Assembly: GCA_023143145.1 (NCBI GenBank)
Contig: JAGLID010000002.1
Location: 1 to 36,286 of the forward strand
Length of the DNA stretch: 36,286 nucleotides
Source: Minisyncoccota bacterium
Lineage (GTDB): Bacteria; Patescibacteriota; Minisyncoccia; JAHIHE01; JAGLIN01
Direction: 5' to 3'
Position numbers and translations under genes: made by a program. Below are positions 22,833 to 30,662 of this stretch, piece by piece. Positions within the stretch are counted from its first letter, which is position 1. The number at the start of each line of letters is the position of its first letter. Below the pieces are notes generated by a model. That model worked only from the letters and a program-made list of their open reading frames with translations. It had not been told where the DNA came from and did not search any database.

Positions 22833-24914
22833 CTAAATTATCTCATCTATTATTACTTGAACTTTTTCTTTTGCGTCGTCTGGCATCCACTCCGTCATAT
22901 TTATTTCCCTTTTTAACTCTTCTTTCGATTTACCTGTCACAGTAAAATATTCTTCGACTATTTCTTCAAAATCATCTAGACGATCGAACTTGACATAAAA
23001 ACTAAAAAGCGAAAAATATGCATCAGAATATTGCTTGTTAATTTCAATTGCAAATTTCATTTCTTTCTCATAGATATCTAACTTTCCTAATTCGTTATAA
23101 ACTAGTGCAAGTTCATAATGAAAAACAGAAGATTCTGGAATATTATTTATACCATATTCAAAGAGTTCAACTTTCTCAGCTAATTTTCCTTGATAACCAT
23201 ACATAAGCCCCAAACCATAATATGCCTTTTCAAATTTTGAATCTAATTCAATAGCTTTTTTATATTCCTCTATAGCCTTGTCTACGTCACCAATTTGAGC
23301 ATGTGCACTCCCTAGATTAAGATGAAAATCAGGAACTTCAGGAGCTATTTCAATTGCAGTTTGAGTTTCTTTAATTGCTTCAAAAAACCTTTCTGTCCTT
23401 GAATAAGCTATTCCTAAATTTGAATACGCCCATGCATAAGTAGAATCTAAACTAATCGCTTTTTTTGCAGATGCAATTGCTTTATCAAATTCATTATATC
23501 GCATATAAACAGATGCCATTGAGCTCAAAGACGGAACATGTTCAGGATTTATAAACAGAGCCTTTTCGTATTCTGATTTTGCAACTTCAACATTGCCCAA
23601 TTTATAATTTGGAAGACCAATCCAATAATGTGCCTCAACCGCTTCTTCGCTATTTTCGGATGCGTCGAGAGCTATTTCTGCTTGCACAATAGCTTCATTG
23701 TAATTTCCATCTGCATAAAATTGTTTTGAATACAACATATTAAATGAATAATTACCTGATGCACCGTCCTCATTAATACTAAAAGAAATTAATAAATTTA
23801 ATATTTGATAAACCTCTTTTGACGCCACATCAAAAACATCTTGAAATTCAACCGAATTCTTTGGTTCGATTATACTCGAGGCCCCATTATATCTTGAAAA
23901 GATTATATCTCCCACCTCATAATATACATCTTCGCTTGTTACATTTTTTATCTCACCTTCAACTTCAAAGAATAGTCTTGTTAACGTTCCAAGAGAAAAA
24001 CCTTTGTCTACTTCTTTTTTTGTATTTTCCTGAAATTCTGGCAGCATGAAAGAGATTTTATAAAAATTACCAGAATTATTATCAATTAAAATTTCTGCCA
24101 TATCAACATCCCAGTTATCGGTTTCTTCTATTGAATCTATTATCGAATTTATATCCGACAATTTTATATCTAAATTATAGTCTTTCAGACTTTCAAAAAA
24201 TGAAATCAACTTTTCTTTGCTTAACCCAACTATAATTCTGTGATATTTTTTATCATTTACTTTATAATTTTTATCATAAGACCTAATAACGATAGCATTC
24301 TTTGCACTCTTAATAATTTTATTTACATCCTCATCACTTAATTGATTTGCAGACTGCATCATATTTTCTTCGCTTCCTGGAGGAATAGAAATATGAAGCC
24401 ACCTATCGCCTGCAATTACTGGCTGTAATATTTTATAAGTTTCCAAAAACAATAGTTGTGGATAAATACGATTTATTTCCCTTGTTAGATTATCAGAATT
24501 ATTATAATCAAACAAAAGAAAAAGATTTTCTTTATTCCACCGAGATACCATTTTTATAATATTGTTTTCTGATTCTACTAGATCCTCTACGACCAATTCA
24601 ACTTCAGACATTTTCTCAGAATTTTTATGATAGTTAAGCACAATTTCAAACTTATCAACTTCTTCATTTTCTACACCTGTAAATTTTGCAACGAAAGATT
24701 CCGACTGCAAAAGATTATTCCAGCTTCTTTCAAGAACAGCCACTGGATTTTCGGTAGAAACAGGAGTAATTATCTTCAAAATAATTGCAATTAAAAAAAC
24801 AACAGAAATCACAATTGCAACCAACATTATTTTTTTAAAAGAATGCTTTTGCGCAGGCTTAACACCAGCAGGACCGGAAATTGGCGCATTTGAGTTTTGA
24901 TTATCTAAATTCAT
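22833..24914 (-). CDS. Membrane-anchored TPR-repeat protein
   Basis: N-terminal TM 'IMLVAIVISVVFLIAIIL'; C-terminal TPRs e.g. 'AWAYSNLGIAYSRTERFFEAIKETQTAIEIAPEVPDFHLNLGSAHAQIGDVDKAIEEYKKAIELD'. Confidence 0.88.
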   Translation of the reverse strand: MNLDNQNSNAPISGPAGVKPAQKHSFKKIMLVAIVISVVFLIAIILKIITPVSTENPVAVLERSWNNLLQSESFVAKFTGVENEEVDKFEIVLNYHKNSEKMSEVELVVEDLVESENNIIKMVSRWNKENLFLLFDYNNSDNLTREINRIYPQLLFLETYKILQPVIAGDRWLHISIPPGSEENMMQSANQLSDEDVNKIIKSAKNAIVIRSYDKNYKVNDKKYHRIIVGLSKEKLISFFESLKDYNLDIKLSDINSIIDSIEETDNWDVDMAEILIDNNSGNFYKISFMLPEFQENTKKEVDKGFSLGTLTRLFFEVEGEIKNVTSEDVYYEVGDIIFSRYNGASSIIEPKNSVEFQDVFDVASKEVYQILNLLISFSINEDGASGNYSFNMLYSKQFYADGNYNEAIVQAEIALDASENSEEAVEAHYWIGLPNYKLGNVEVAKSEYEKALFINPEHVPSLSSMASVYMRYNEFDKAIASAKKAISLDSTYAWAYSNLGIAYSRTERFFEAIKETQTAIEIAPEVPDFHLNLGSAHAQIGDVDKAIEEYKKAIELDSKFEKAYYGLGLMYGYQGKLAEKVELFEYGINNIPESSVFHYELALVYNELGKLDIYEKEMKFAIEINKQYSDAYFSLFSFYVKFDRLDDFEEIVEEYFTVTGKSKEELKREINMTEWMPDDAKEKVQVIIDEII

Positions 24915-25074: not shown

Positions 25075-25096
25075 CCCCTACTCAAATGAGGAGGGG
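25075..25096 (-). terminator. Rho-independent terminator of the ATP-grasp operon (minus strand)
   Basis: cccctactc-aaat-gaggagggg; on the minus strand the stem is followed by atttttagt, ~90 bp downstream of the last operon gene. Confidence 0.65.
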
Positions 25097-25187: not shown

Positions 25188-26216
25188 TTATTTTTTAATA
25201 TATTTGCCTCTTGTCTCTGAAAATAAAATATCAATTATTCCTTTTGCCACATTTCTTGATTTCCCTTGATAGGGAGAATAATGCATAAATATTCCGGGGT
25301 ATGAGTTTATTTCAATTATTACGTAGCTATTTTTTGTCGGTTTTTTAGAAATATCTTGATTAGTCATAAAATCAACACCAGCATAGGCAAGTCCAGGAAT
25401 TGCTTTTATTGTTTTAATAGCAATTTTTTTAATATCTGAATGGACTCGATCTGTTACATCAATACTGTCTCCACCCGTTGAAATAGCAGCTTCTTTTCTC
25501 AAATAAATTTTTTCTCCTTTATTCGGAATATAATTAATATTTATACCTTGTTCAAATAAATTTTGTTTTATAGTTTTATCTATTTTAATTTTTACGAGTG
25601 GACTTCTATAATGTTCTCCTCTTTTTGGATCGCTATTCTTAGCTTTAATTAATTCCTTAATATTATAAATCCCATCACCAATAACATTTGCTGGTTCTCT
25701 ATTGGTCACAGCAAAAACTTTATCACGACTTACTACAAACCTAAATTCTTTTCCTTTAAATTCTTTTTCAACCAAAATATAATTATTTTTCTTCAAAATT
25801 TTTTCAATTGCCAAGTTACAATCTTTTTGATTTTTAATTCCAACAAAAACCAAATTTCCACGGCTACCGTCATTTTTTTTAACTACAATTGGATATCCTA
25901 TTTTTTTTATAAACATAAAAGCTTCAGCTATATTTTTCTTGCTAAAAAGCATTCCTTTTGACACATTAATTTTTTTTCTCTCTAGAAAAATTTTTGTTAA
26001 ATATTTATTCGTAACACAATGATGTGTTATAGCAGTCATTTTTGAAATAATGCCACCAGAAATATACTCAAAATGATTTTTATATGATAATTCAAAAAAC
26101 GCCATATCACCCTGCTTCTTGTTTAAATAATCCACATTTATTCCTCTTGCAAGAGATTCCTCTATTAACAGCCTCTGGCTTATATATTTTATATTTTTTA
26201 ATTCACTATATTTCAT
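25188..26216 (-). CDS. ATP-grasp domain protein (cyanophycin synthetase/GshF/RimK-like amide ligase)
   Basis: 'YPIVVKKNDGSRGNLVFVGI', 'ILVEKEFKGKEFRFVV', 'YAGVDFMTN.......YVIIEINSYPGIFMHYSP'. Confidence 0.85.
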   Translation of the reverse strand: MKYSELKNIKYISQRLLIEESLARGINVDYLNKKQGDMAFFELSYKNHFEYISGGIISKMTAITHHCVTNKYLTKIFLERKKINVSKGMLFSKKNIAEAFMFIKKIGYPIVVKKNDGSRGNLVFVGIKNQKDCNLAIEKILKKNNYILVEKEFKGKEFRFVVSRDKVFAVTNREPANVIGDGIYNIKELIKAKNSDPKRGEHYRSPLVKIKIDKTIKQNLFEQGININYIPNKGEKIYLRKEAAISTGGDSIDVTDRVHSDIKKIAIKTIKAIPGLAYAGVDFMTNQDISKKPTKNSYVIIEINSYPGIFMHYSPYQGKSRNVAKGIIDILFSETRGKYIKK

Positions 26217-26221
26217 AAAGA

Positions 26222-27100
26222 CTATTTTAAAAGATTAATAATTTCTTTTGGGAAATTTGCTCCCGTGGCTTCTTCAAATCCCTTAAAATCACAAAAGAAA
26301 TTAACCTCTAAAATTAAATATTTTTTACCTGTCAAAATTATATCTATACCCAAATAGTCACATTGAAAAAGCTTGCAAATCTCTAAACAGTCTTTGATAA
26401 TTTTTTTATCATTCAATCCAAAATTTTCAATACTGCCCCCTGCTGAAAAATTATTAACAACACTCCCTTCTTTTGCGCTCCTGCTCATTGCTCCAATAAT
26501 TTTTTTTCTAGTACAAATTATTCTTAAATCAAAACTATTAGGAACAAACTTTTGAATTAGTATGTCACTAGCAGAATAATCTTTTCCCCTCTCTATAAAA
26601 TCCATTTCATTCTCTATTTTAAATATATCAACTCCTCTGGACCCACTTCTTGGCTTAACAATAAAAGAACTATTTATACTTTCTAATTTTTTAGATAATA
26701 AATAATTAGAATTTAAAAAATATGTTGGCTTGATAATTGGAAAATTATTTTTTTCCAATAAATAATATTGAAACAACTTATCTCTTGCAGAACCTAAATT
26801 TAGAAAAAGATTGAGATTAATTGTTTTTATCGTCAAAGAATTTAAGTGATTTAGCAATATATCAAAAAAAACATGGTCTTTACTGTCCTTAAATTTTGGA
26901 TTCCTGAGAACTGCCATGTCATTCTTTTCAAAATTGATTTTTTTTCCCTTATACTTGAATTCTGCTTTTTTATTAAACTCTAGAGATATGTGTTTATATT
27001 GTATAGCTTTAAAACCAAATCCCATTTTTTTGGATTCTTTCTGAAATCTTTTCATTGCATATGAGCCTATAACAGGTGTAAAATATAATACTCTTTTCAT
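26222..27100 (-). CDS. ATP-grasp domain protein (RimK-like ligase)
   Basis: 'SSFIVKPRSGSRGVDIFKI', 'ILIQKFVPNSFDLRIICTRKKIIGAMSR', 'CDYLGIDIILTGKKYLILEVNFFCDFKGFE'. Confidence 0.87.
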   Translation of the reverse strand: MKRVLYFTPVIGSYAMKRFQKESKKMGFGFKAIQYKHISLEFNKKAEFKYKGKKINFEKNDMAVLRNPKFKDSKDHVFFDILLNHLNSLTIKTINLNLFLNLGSARDKLFQYYLLEKNNFPIIKPTYFLNSNYLLSKKLESINSSFIVKPRSGSRGVDIFKIENEMDFIERGKDYSASDILIQKFVPNSFDLRIICTRKKIIGAMSRSAKEGSVVNNFSAGGSIENFGLNDKKIIKDCLEICKLFQCDYLGIDIILTGKKYLILEVNFFCDFKGFEEATGANFPKEIINLLK

Positions 27101-27126
27101 TTTTTTAAAATTAATGATTAAATATT

Positions 27127-28515
27127 TTATAAATTATCCCACATCGTCTCAGCTATCTTTTCAATCTTTCTTGCCCTTTTTTGCAGAATCTCAGACTCTT
27201 TATAGAATCCTATCTTTATTAAATCGGAAATCAATTTTGGGTCTACTTTGGATATTAAAGGATATATATCTACTTCATTTTTTTTCATTTTTTCAGCAAT
27301 AAAAACTCCCTCAAAATATGTCTTATCTTTGGAGAAATAATAAGGGAAGAGGCCTCTATAAATTCTCACTAGCACTCTTTTTGTTGATTCTTTTGCCTTT
27401 ATTTCACTTGTCTCTTTATTGTACCCCGTGACTAACATTTCTTTTTGATATAAATTAAAAATATAATTATAAATATTTTCTATATCATCCTGTTTATTTT
27501 CTTCTATTAGTTCTTTAGCCTTATAAATAGCTAAAATATAATAAACACCCAATCTTAACTTAAATTCTGGAAATGAATCTCCCATGATTTTTCTCTTCAT
27601 ATTCTCCTCACTGACAAGAGCCATTCCCTCATGAACGATTTCCCAGTCTCGACCTATACTCAGTCCGTCTATACCGAGTTCTTTGTTTCCCATATTTGCT
27701 AATGCATGACACCCTATTTCATGGGCTATAAGCTGAAACATTTTTCTCTTACCAGCTCTTCTTTCTTTCGGAATAAATATTACAGGTGAGCTATACCCGG
27801 GTGAGCTATATCTTACATCTATTGAAGTAACACTACTATCAATAACTGTTTTAAAACCGTATTTATCTAACTCACTCTTTTCCAAAGATAAATCAAAATA
27901 TTTCTTAATATATTCAGCATCAAATTTTTCCCGCTTAATGCTATTTTTTACTATGCTAGTAGCAAGCCCTTTTTTCTTTCTTTCATTTAAAAAAGCAATT
28001 CTTTTCTTATAATATTTCAAAGCCTCTTTTTGTAAATCTTCATCAATATCTCCATATGCTTTTTTGGCACATTCAAACGCCTTTCTTTTATTTTCCTTTT
28101 TTAATTCAATTAAGATATTTATCTTTGCTTGAAACGATGAGGCCGTATCAATAATTATATTCCGGATATATTTATTTTCTTTTTCTGCCTTTTTCTTGAT
28201 TGTCTCTAAATCATCAACTTTTTTTTCAAGGATTTTAATGTCTATTCCCTTAAGTTTTGGAAGTTCTGCTTTTATGTGATATTCTAATCCCTTTTCTTTA
28301 TTTTCTAAATACTTTTCTAATTCATTTTGAAAACTTCTGTCATTCTTTTTGCTTGGCTCAAAATAATAATAAATCATTTCATAATTTTTTCCTATACTAT
28401 AAATTTCTTTAGCATAAAAAAGAAATCTTTCTTTTAATAGCGGGTCTATTTTCTTATTTCTCACTCCTTTTTCTGCTTTTTTAATATCTTCAATTATAAG
28501 ATTGATGTCGGACAT
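27127..28515 (-). CDS. DUF1704 / MATCAP-type (QEGLA-motif family) metallopeptidase
   Basis: 'LIAHEIGCHALANM' (HExxxH) followed by 'WEIVHEGMALVSEE' (family E-G-x-A motif; third ligand Glu). Confidence 0.82.
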   Translation of the reverse strand: MSDINLIIEDIKKAEKGVRNKKIDPLLKERFLFYAKEIYSIGKNYEMIYYYFEPSKKNDRSFQNELEKYLENKEKGLEYHIKAELPKLKGIDIKILEKKVDDLETIKKKAEKENKYIRNIIIDTASSFQAKINILIELKKENKRKAFECAKKAYGDIDEDLQKEALKYYKKRIAFLNERKKKGLATSIVKNSIKREKFDAEYIKKYFDLSLEKSELDKYGFKTVIDSSVTSIDVRYSSPGYSSPVIFIPKERRAGKRKMFQLIAHEIGCHALANMGNKELGIDGLSIGRDWEIVHEGMALVSEENMKRKIMGDSFPEFKLRLGVYYILAIYKAKELIEENKQDDIENIYNYIFNLYQKEMLVTGYNKETSEIKAKESTKRVLVRIYRGLFPYYFSKDKTYFEGVFIAEKMKKNEVDIYPLISKVDPKLISDLIKIGFYKESEILQKRARKIEKIAETMWDNL

Positions 28516-28534
28516 ATTTATTTTTATAAATTTT

Positions 28535-30028
28535 TTATTCTACGCTGCTCATAATTGTTTGTGCTTTTTTACTTGGGTCTATAATAAACTTGAGCAAATC
28601 CTTCTTCCCTATAATTACTGGAAATTCTAAATGGCTTCGGTCAATTACTGACATTCTTGAAAAAACCTCAACACCAGACAAAATAATTTCCATATTAACC
28701 ATCAGCCTATAAGATATACCATGACTTGATCTTATTAAAACTGTACTAAAGTTTTCTCCCCATTTCAATAATTTGTCTTTGATTTCCTCATCGAGGTCAT
28801 CGGCTTTGGAACTCTGAGTAATTTCTAAATCTTTAACAACTTCATCGAATTCGTCTATCACATCACCATAACCAAGCTTTCTCGCTATTTCTTTGTCTAT
28901 TGAAGATACACCTGCTCCAGTATCAATTTTTGCTTTTAGCTCCATTTCCTCTAGTTTACTCTCATTCTTTTCTGTGATTACTTTATCATTTCCTCCATCA
29001 TCAACCTCCGCAATTTCTTTTATTTTATGTTTGATTTTTATAGACTCAATAATTCCCAAAACCTGTTTTCCAGAGATTTCTTCAATTTCCTCTTCAATTT
29101 CTCCTCCAAAAAGATCTTGCGCAATTCTGATGCCGTGAGCCTCGTCTTGAACTTTGATTCCTTGAACTTTTTGCAATCTATATTTCAGTGGTGCCAAATT
29201 AGCAATTTGAATCGAAAGTCCAGAGTGTGCATTAATCTCAAGCACAACTGGTCCTCTTTCCTTGTCAATTGCGACATCAACTCCAATATAACCAAGCTTT
29301 GAAACTTGCTGACATTTAATTGCAATTTCCAAAATTTTCCTCCAATAAGGAATCCTGATTCCACTTAATTTTAGTTTTGAATCCGGATGTTTTTCAATCA
29401 GCTGATCTCTTTGAACGGCGTGAGTAGAGATCCCATTGGTAATATCGATTCCAAGTCCAATACCACCAAGATGAAGATTGGCCTTCCCGTCCGACTCTTT
29501 CGTAGGAAGACGAAGCATGGCCATCACAGGAACATTGTTATAAACAATAACTCTGATGTCGGGGATACCTTTATATGCATAAGGCTTTAAAGTTTTTGAA
29601 ATTTGAATTCTTTCTTCAAAAAAAGCAATGTCTGAAACTCCAGAAAGAGAATAAAATCCTTCAAAAACATCCATTATATGATTTCGCAAATCTTTTATCG
29701 TAATTCTTCTCCCTTCTGTCGAAACCCAGCTTTGATCTTTTTTCTGACCAAATATTATTTTTATTCCTTCTCCGCCTCTTCCATGATTCGGCTTGAGAAC
29801 AAAACTTTTTGGCAAGTCTGCCCATTTAAACATTTCCAGATCTTTTCTATTTTTTATAACACCAAAAACCTTCGGGACAGGTATTCCGTTGTTGAAAAGT
29901 AATTCCTTGCTTCTCAACTTATTGTCTGCAAGGCGAATCGCATCTTGAAGATTACTTGGTCTAATATATGTTAGGTTTCTGGAATTCATTCCCAAAAGAC
30001 CTCTACTTTTTTTAATTGTTGTCAACAT
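28535..30028 (-). CDS. ATP-grasp ligase (ATPgrasp_ST / alpha-L-glutamate ligase-like) fused to retropepsin-like (RimB/PF05618-type) domain
   Basis: 'SFVLKPNHGRGGEGIKII', 'DIRVIVYNNVPVMAMLRLPT', 'GYIGVDVAIDKERGPVVLEINAHSGLSIQIAN'. C-terminal 'ELKAKIDTGAGVSSIDKEIARKLG' and 'EFPVIIGKKDLLKFIIDPSK' are typical of the retropepsin-like family. Confidence 0.85.
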   Translation of the reverse strand: MLTTIKKSRGLLGMNSRNLTYIRPSNLQDAIRLADNKLRSKELLFNNGIPVPKVFGVIKNRKDLEMFKWADLPKSFVLKPNHGRGGEGIKIIFGQKKDQSWVSTEGRRITIKDLRNHIMDVFEGFYSLSGVSDIAFFEERIQISKTLKPYAYKGIPDIRVIVYNNVPVMAMLRLPTKESDGKANLHLGGIGLGIDITNGISTHAVQRDQLIEKHPDSKLKLSGIRIPYWRKILEIAIKCQQVSKLGYIGVDVAIDKERGPVVLEINAHSGLSIQIANLAPLKYRLQKVQGIKVQDEAHGIRIAQDLFGGEIEEEIEEISGKQVLGIIESIKIKHKIKEIAEVDDGGNDKVITEKNESKLEEMELKAKIDTGAGVSSIDKEIARKLGYGDVIDEFDEVVKDLEITQSSKADDLDEEIKDKLLKWGENFSTVLIRSSHGISYRLMVNMEIILSGVEVFSRMSVIDRSHLEFPVIIGKKDLLKFIIDPSKKAQTIMSSVE

Positions 30029-30662
30029 GTTTTATAACATCTTTAAATCTAAAATATTCTCTTAACCTTAATCCAGTCCATTTTCCTAAAATAATATTAA
30101 TGACGAGAAGCAGGATTATGTATTCTGGATGGTTAAGAATTAAATTTCGAAAGCTATCCCAAACAATAAAATAATATCCAGCGCTTGAGATGATTATTGT
30201 TTCTATTGATAAAATTGTCGCCGTTCTTATTCCTTTTTCAACTTGAGTAGAGATGAATTTTTCAATCAATGTTATCATAATCAAAATTGGCAAAATTGAA
30301 GTTGAGGCAAGTCCAATTTTTCCAAATGAGCCCGCCAAAGTTAACAACCCTAAAATCGCAATACTAATCACGGTGAGCACAATGGCAATTCGCGGAAGAT
30401 ATAACAATCTAAATTTTTTCAAAAAATATCTCATTGCAGTTCCAGAAATCAAAACGACAACAAAAATGGCAAGGCCATATTTTAATCCTATCGCCCAAAA
30501 AGCAAATGTTAGAACAAGTGGAGTATATACTCCAAAAGACTTTACTCCAATGATTTGTCTGAAAATGACAATCAATGTTGCAACAAAAGGAAGAGCAAGA
30601 ATCAAATATACAGTTTCAACATCTACTCCCTGAGAAATTATAACATTTATTATTTCTGACAT
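30012..30662 (-). CDS. 7TM membrane protein resembling the 7TM half of '7TM inactive transglutaminase' proteins
   Basis: 'LILALPFVATLIVIFRQIIGVKSFGVYTPLVLTFAFWAIGLKYGLAIF'; ~7 hydrophobic helices; overlaps the next gene by 17 bp. Confidence 0.75.
   Translation of the reverse strand: MSEIINVIISQGVDVETVYLILALPFVATLIVIFRQIIGVKSFGVYTPLVLTFAFWAIGLKYGLAIFVVVLISGTAMRYFLKKFRLLYLPRIAIVLTVISIAILGLLTLAGSFGKIGLASTSILPILIMITLIEKFISTQVEKGIRTATILSIETIIISSAGYYFIVWDSFRNLILNHPEYIILLLVINIILGKWTGLRLREYFRFKDVIKHVDNN

Follow-up and report, generated by a model that had tools for sequence, protein, structure and literature searches.

A Patescibacterial relative of the Pseudomonas rloABC system with a fused ligase-retropepsin, a MATCAP-type protein and a variable set of ligases

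The window studied here is a 36,286-nucleotide stretch of DNA from a Minisyncoccota bacterium (contig JAGLID010000002.1 of assembly GCA_023143145.1), which is contig 81 of a 1.28 Mb source genome assembly. Between positions 25188 and 30662 it carries an operon of five minus-strand open reading frames (ORFs), with junctions of −17, +19, +26 and +5 bp. A predicted RimK-like ligase and a retropepsin, both intact by sequence, lie in one polypeptide, encoded beside a 7TM protein, a MATCAP protein and two more ATP-grasp ligases. The operon is a Patescibacterial relative of rloABC of Pseudomonas aeruginosa, and its first two genes are the counterpart of rloB and rloC-rloA. The first-pass annotation had described the five ORFs, their junctions and a terminator-like hairpin exactly as they are found here, and Pfam and NCBIfam searches match the identities that it gave. 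It had also called the system a candidate uncharacterised one, which does not hold for genes 1-2 (PMC12239564). The features of the locus, in window coordinates, are the following.

30012..30662, minus strand: RloB-like 7TM membrane protein that lacks both a PKD ectodomain and the inactive transglutaminase (216 aa; PF14402)
28535..30028, minus strand: RloC-RloA fusion (ORF B), ATP-grasp ligase and retropepsin in one chain (497 aa; PF14397, TIGR02291, PF05618)
29162..29980, minus strand: RloC ATP-grasp domain, residues 17-289 (K79, D157, R159, D251, E264 and N266 intact)
28565..28969, minus strand: retropepsin domain, residues 354-488 (DTGA with D369; K367, R441, R464)
27127..28515, minus strand: MATCAP (DUF1704) zinc carboxypeptidase-like protein (ORF C; 462 aa; PF08014)
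27706..27723, minus strand: HEIGCH (HExxxH) metal-binding motif, residues 265-270 of MATCAP, conserved in homologues
27628..27630, minus strand: E296, third metal ligand of MATCAP judged by conservation, in HEG (EEG of human MATCAP)
26222..27100, minus strand: RimK-type ATP-grasp ligase (292 aa; PF08443, TIGR00768)
25188..26216, minus strand: CphA/GshB-type ATP-grasp ligase, single domain (ORF E; 342 aa; TIGR02068)
25075..25096, minus strand: terminator-like hairpin, then a U-run (−12.7 kcal/mol, z −3.0)

The proteins of the operon

ORF B matches PF14397 (5.6e-78), TIGR02291 (8.7e-90) and PF05618 (3.8e-8). Its TIGR02291 score of 301 bits is slightly under the curated cut-off of 314, and the catalytic residues are those of an RloC-type ATP-grasp ligase. 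The AlphaFold2 (AF2) model has two confident domains joined by a flexible linker (mean pLDDT 85.8, pTM 0.64), and its closest folds in the PDB are RimK structures (5zct is the nearest), D-Ala-D-Ala ligases ranking lower. Residues K367, D369, R441 and R464 of the retropepsin domain align with K46, D48, R114 and R137 of P. aeruginosa RloA, and the two arginines are 23 residues apart in both proteins. With DTG and the polyglutamate-binding Lys/Arg set, the domain is by its residues a retropepsin of the RloA type. P. aeruginosa RloA cleaves polyglutamate, as does RimB, but RloA does so only when the chain has at least eight residues; mutating either R114 or R137 abolishes rescue (PMC12239564). No signal peptide is visible in ORF B by inspection, a signal-peptide predictor not having been run. 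Fusion to RloC would hold the retropepsin on the cytosolic side, unlike Pseudomonas RloA. Longer fusions also occur, in which about 430 extra residues follow RloC-retropepsin (L168 5408-8173, L235 3218-5782); those of L168 include another ATP-grasp domain.

The 7TM protein matches PF14402 (7TM_transglut, 9.6e-30). The match to NF052267 (RloB) covers the 7TM part only, and Pfam and NCBIfam searches detect no transglutaminase domain. The Patescibacterial RloB-like proteins of about 500 residues examined with Pfam have a PKD ectodomain instead of the inactive transglutaminase; such PKD-7TM fusions are seen at loci L152, L153, L154, L157, L190, L195, L198, L209 and L226. Proteins of the window's family consist of the 7TM part alone.

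ORF C matches PF08014 (6.6e-8), and a profile built on the MATCAP proteins of the window's family finds human MATCAP (7z5g) at 2e-38. H265, E266 and H270 are invariant in 29 homologues, and so are E296-G297; the family and human proteins share the motifs HExxxH, EG, RG..D and KD..Y..G. The AF2 model (mean pLDDT 90.6) has human MATCAP as its top fold match (probability 1.00, E 0.009), followed by M32 carboxypeptidases. The predicted fold thus holds the HExxxH and EG metal site of MATCAP, the match being modest in TM-score (0.41/0.55), and ORF C can be described as a MATCAP-type putative carboxypeptidase/deglutamylase. Human TMCP1/MATCAP and TMCP2 shorten posttranslational polyglutamate (PMC10499314). 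For the bacterial MATCAP/DUF1704/QEGLA proteins, no function was found in the literature searched.

The ligase at 26222-27100 (PF08443 6e-20, TIGR00768 6e-33) is nearest to RimK in the PDB, and ORF E (TIGR02068 3e-84) is nearest to GshAB (2e-51) and cyanophycin synthetase. The catalytic residues of both are kept, for the former throughout the family. The active sites of the two peptidases and three ligases are therefore not degenerate, an outcome on which the first-pass annotation had made its proposal depend.

Folding supports the hairpin at 25075-25096, although it is not among the terminators listed by a simple scan; promoter matches in the window are no commoner than in shuffled sequence. 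A small precursor peptide within the operon was considered and rejected, as there is no intergenic room for it. Small neighbours in other lineages, judged by eye, are RNase H-like or membrane proteins. Immediately after the operon, downstream at 22833-24914, lies a TPR protein with an N-terminal membrane segment, which is missing at the corresponding place in the nearest relative (L042).

Conservation in the family and apparent exchange of peptidases in the phylum

The family survey covered 14 genomes of the window's family (the window's own included), plus four that belong to other families in the same order. The RloC-RloA gene is matched in 12 family genomes plus the window's own, and MATCAP is present in 11 of the 14; neither is found in any of the four genomes from the other families. 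The named relatives of ORF B all come from Patescibacteria or from unclassified bacterial metagenome bins. In the family loci read out, the order ruvC, 7TM, RloC-RloA is constant, with yebC usually nearby, so that the arrangement persists among relatives, as the operon hypothesis required. The complete family copies of 7TM and RloC-RloA that were aligned are 64-95% identical to the window's proteins. A chance arrangement is excluded by this conservation of order and sequence.

The core (7TM and RloC-RloA) is conserved, while the downstream cassette of ligases and MATCAP is variable. It comprises one to three MATCAP genes and CphA-like and RimK-like ligases, varying by genome, and MATCAP identity to the window's protein drops to 25-72% within the family. 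Other members are L-amino-acid-ligase-like ATP-grasp proteins (weak LAL_C2 match), GNAT proteins (PF13480) and, in one cassette, a glutamylcyclotransferase-like protein recognised by eye only. RloC, retropepsin and MATCAP form a single chain in family genomes G005 and G011 and in the contig-cut G010; in G014, a contig-cut chain has the retropepsin end joined to MATCAP.

The survey of the phylum included 380 Patescibacterial genomes, in which the 7TM loci were read out. The 7TM domain occurs in 110 genomes and MATCAP in 86, of which 68 carry the two together (Fisher p 3e-29, without correction for relatedness); in 59 of these 68, the two lie at most 10 kb apart. The standard Patescibacterial pair is a 7TM protein with RloC fused either to retropepsin or to MATCAP. 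Of the 98 RloC proteins in the sample, 36 have MATCAP fused to them, with further cases in the window's family, and a degenerate retropepsin sits between RloC and MATCAP in all 36. In MATCAP genomes devoid of 7TM (L264-L267), MATCAP clusters with separate RimB-like retropepsin and ATP-grasp genes, and L264 has RimK proper. No RloC-MATCAP fusion is found among plasmids outside Patescibacteria, a search that did not extend systematically to chromosomes of other phyla.

Retropepsins were scored as competent when the catalytic Asp and the two polyglutamate-binding Arg stand at the aligned positions, based on the biochemistry of P. aeruginosa RloA (PMC12239564). The pattern D[TS]G[ASG] was dropped as a criterion of loss, since it miscounts the DTG-I/V/E proteins of one family as DTG-less. 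In a sample of 97 Patescibacterial genomes, contig-truncated rows being left out, 43 retropepsins are competent and 54 defective. All 54 defective ones occur in MATCAP genomes, 36 of them with MATCAP fused to RloC, and all 33 MATCAP-free genomes have a competent retropepsin (p 2e-17). When only unfused proteins are considered, MATCAP is in the genome for 18/18 defective versus 10/43 competent retropepsins (p 1e-8). Mapped onto the RloC tree, fusion requires four changes (three or more of the fusions being independent), and three are required for losing the catalytic site or flap. The ligase residues are intact in all 38 RloC-MATCAP fused proteins; it is therefore the eraser that changes, not the writer.

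Comparison with known systems

In P. aeruginosa, rloABC acts in the tolerance of hypoosmotic conditions, in cell shape and in sensitivity to antibiotics (mBio 2025; PMC12239564); the same three genes occur in Legionella. There, as in the window, a 7TM protein, an RloC-type ATP-grasp ligase and an RloA-type retropepsin are encoded together, and the catalytic Asp and polyglutamate-binding Lys/Arg are conserved in the window protein. However, ligase and protease are separate genes in rloABC and one chain in the window, P. aeruginosa RloA has a signal peptide whereas the window retropepsin is tied to a cytosolic ligase, and RloB carries an inactive transglutaminase, which the window 7TM protein lacks and which gives way to PKD in those longer Patescibacterial proteins that were examined. 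MATCAP and the extra ligases are found only in the Patescibacterial system.

RimK-RimB, which glutamylates ribosomal protein S6, likewise pairs an ATP-grasp ligase with a polyglutamate-cleaving retropepsin, but has neither membrane partner nor MATCAP, and RimK proper belongs to another subfamily than RloC. Human MATCAP/TMCP with TTL/TTLL (PMC10499314) also has a carboxypeptidase that opposes ATP-grasp ligases at C-terminal and glutamate tails; the substrate is cytoskeletal and eukaryotic and the proteins are separate, whereas many Patescibacteria have ligase and carboxypeptidase in one chain. In the Proteobacterial QEGLA/DUF1704 operon of Sinorhizobium (N-formylglutamate amidohydrolase, QEGLA, glutathione-synthase-like ATP-grasp), a MATCAP-family protein again stands beside an ATP-grasp ligase, but no 7TM, RloC or retropepsin is annotated in the stretch read.

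A proposed write/trim system for glutamate-type tails and its alternatives

The reading that we favour, if only with modest confidence, is that the operon writes and trims glutamate-type peptide tails as an Rlo-type system, MATCAP and retropepsin serving as interchangeable erasers. Polyglutamate is proposed because RloA, RimB and human MATCAP-family enzymes cut it, the K/D/R/R set is kept, and RloC is nearest to RimK. RloC, which we infer to use glutamate, would attach glutamates, or acidic residues like them, to an acceptor on the cytoplasmic side of the membrane, and the RimK- and CphA-type ligases may lengthen or diversify the chain. The retropepsin domain would cut within long chains, and MATCAP would take residues off the C-terminus. 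As both would act on the same chain, one eraser could replace the other; in other lineages, MATCAP would have become fused to RloC and the retropepsin would have decayed. At the heart of the case for polyglutamate is the exchange, beside one ligase, of two unrelated peptidases whose known substrate is the same. The 7TM protein probably connects the product to the envelope, via export or signalling. An envelope target is plausible in view of the penicillin-binding proteins that adjoin the system in other lineages. An earlier proposal of three ligases and two peptidases writing and erasing a modification gains strong support from the ligase-retropepsin and ligase-MATCAP fusions and from the replacement of retropepsin by MATCAP, but the trio of ligases is not constant between genomes.

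Several observations weigh against this reading. No substrate or product of the operon has been seen, and no measured RloC activity was found in the literature for any organism. Among the 86 MATCAP genomes, 18 are without 7TM. The retropepsin decayed in only about four separate events, and the commonest defective class is one clade; among independent pairs, 3.6 of about 4 agree and none disagrees (p 0.125), so few losses leaving the phylogenetically controlled test without the power to reach significance. The window MATCAP is divergent (32 bits in Pfam), and a product that changes, in place of a constant polyglutamate tail, would likewise account for how fast the downstream genes diverge.

Among the alternatives, modification of the cell wall is unlikely but deserves the most weight. 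The ligases would attach amino acids to the precursors or cross-bridges of peptidoglycan, in the manner of the ATP-grasp D-Asp ligase and FemXAB, and the peptidases would trim wall peptides. In Moranbacteria and several other families, RloC-RloA and its ligases are indeed followed directly by a class A penicillin-binding protein (loci L120-L128, L131, L135, L137, L142, L144, L159, L199, L208, L209, L221 and L233), some family cassettes have a GNAT (PF13480) enzyme that may be a FemAB relative, and P. aeruginosa rlo mutants are altered in cell shape and ampicillin sensitivity (PMC12239564). However, there is no penicillin-binding protein near the window or in the family loci examined, the polyglutamate-binding Arg of the retropepsin are conserved, and RimK comes before the D-Ala-D-Ala ligases among the folds nearest to RloC.

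Synthesis of a small peptide resembling glutathione, cyanophycin or a dipeptide, either secreted or kept inside the cell, with the peptidases recycling it and the 7TM protein transporting it, is less probable still. The resemblance of ORF E to GshAB and cyanophycin synthetase, the L-amino-acid-ligase-like and glutamylcyclotransferase-like cassette members, and a cassette variability reminiscent of biosynthetic clusters would agree with it. Yet in at least 28 genomes the minimal unit is 7TM and RloC-MATCAP without further ligase, and an endopeptidase requiring at least eight glutamates is unsuited to a di- or tripeptide.

RimK-like modification of S6, with MATCAP and retropepsin as tail trimmers, is very improbable, and S6 is disfavoured as the substrate: RimK and RimB act on S6 and the family S6 has a long K/E-rich C-terminal tail, but this tail is equally present in same-order families without the operon, so that it does not track the operon, and the membrane partner is conserved. 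The Lys/Glu-rich extension of S6 (rpsF; contig 114 of the window genome; L270-L273, L278, L280, L283, L285, L286) ends in a conserved LEDLE-KLDEIL helix.

The favoured write/trim reading has a bolder form, which is put forward tentatively: one polypeptide would both write and erase an acidic tail, MATCAP would have repeatedly taken over from the retropepsin, and the fast-changing extra ligases would diversify the tail between close relatives. If so, the eukaryotic pairing of ligase and MATCAP on tubulin tails has a bacterial counterpart.

The Rlo part of the system is already known; the fused Patescibacterial variant, the expandable ligase cassette and the evidence for mutual substitution of MATCAP and retropepsin are new. 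The prediction from the exchange pattern is that glutamate chains, the target of RloA-type retropepsins, are also what bacterial MATCAP removes, which makes its job testable with two purified proteins. Were this prediction true, it would provide a bacterial parallel to the enzymes of tubulin tails. The Rlo system is also carried by pathogens, P. aeruginosa among them. In Patescibacteria, small-genome and mostly uncultured bacteria, the operon represents an expanded modification system.

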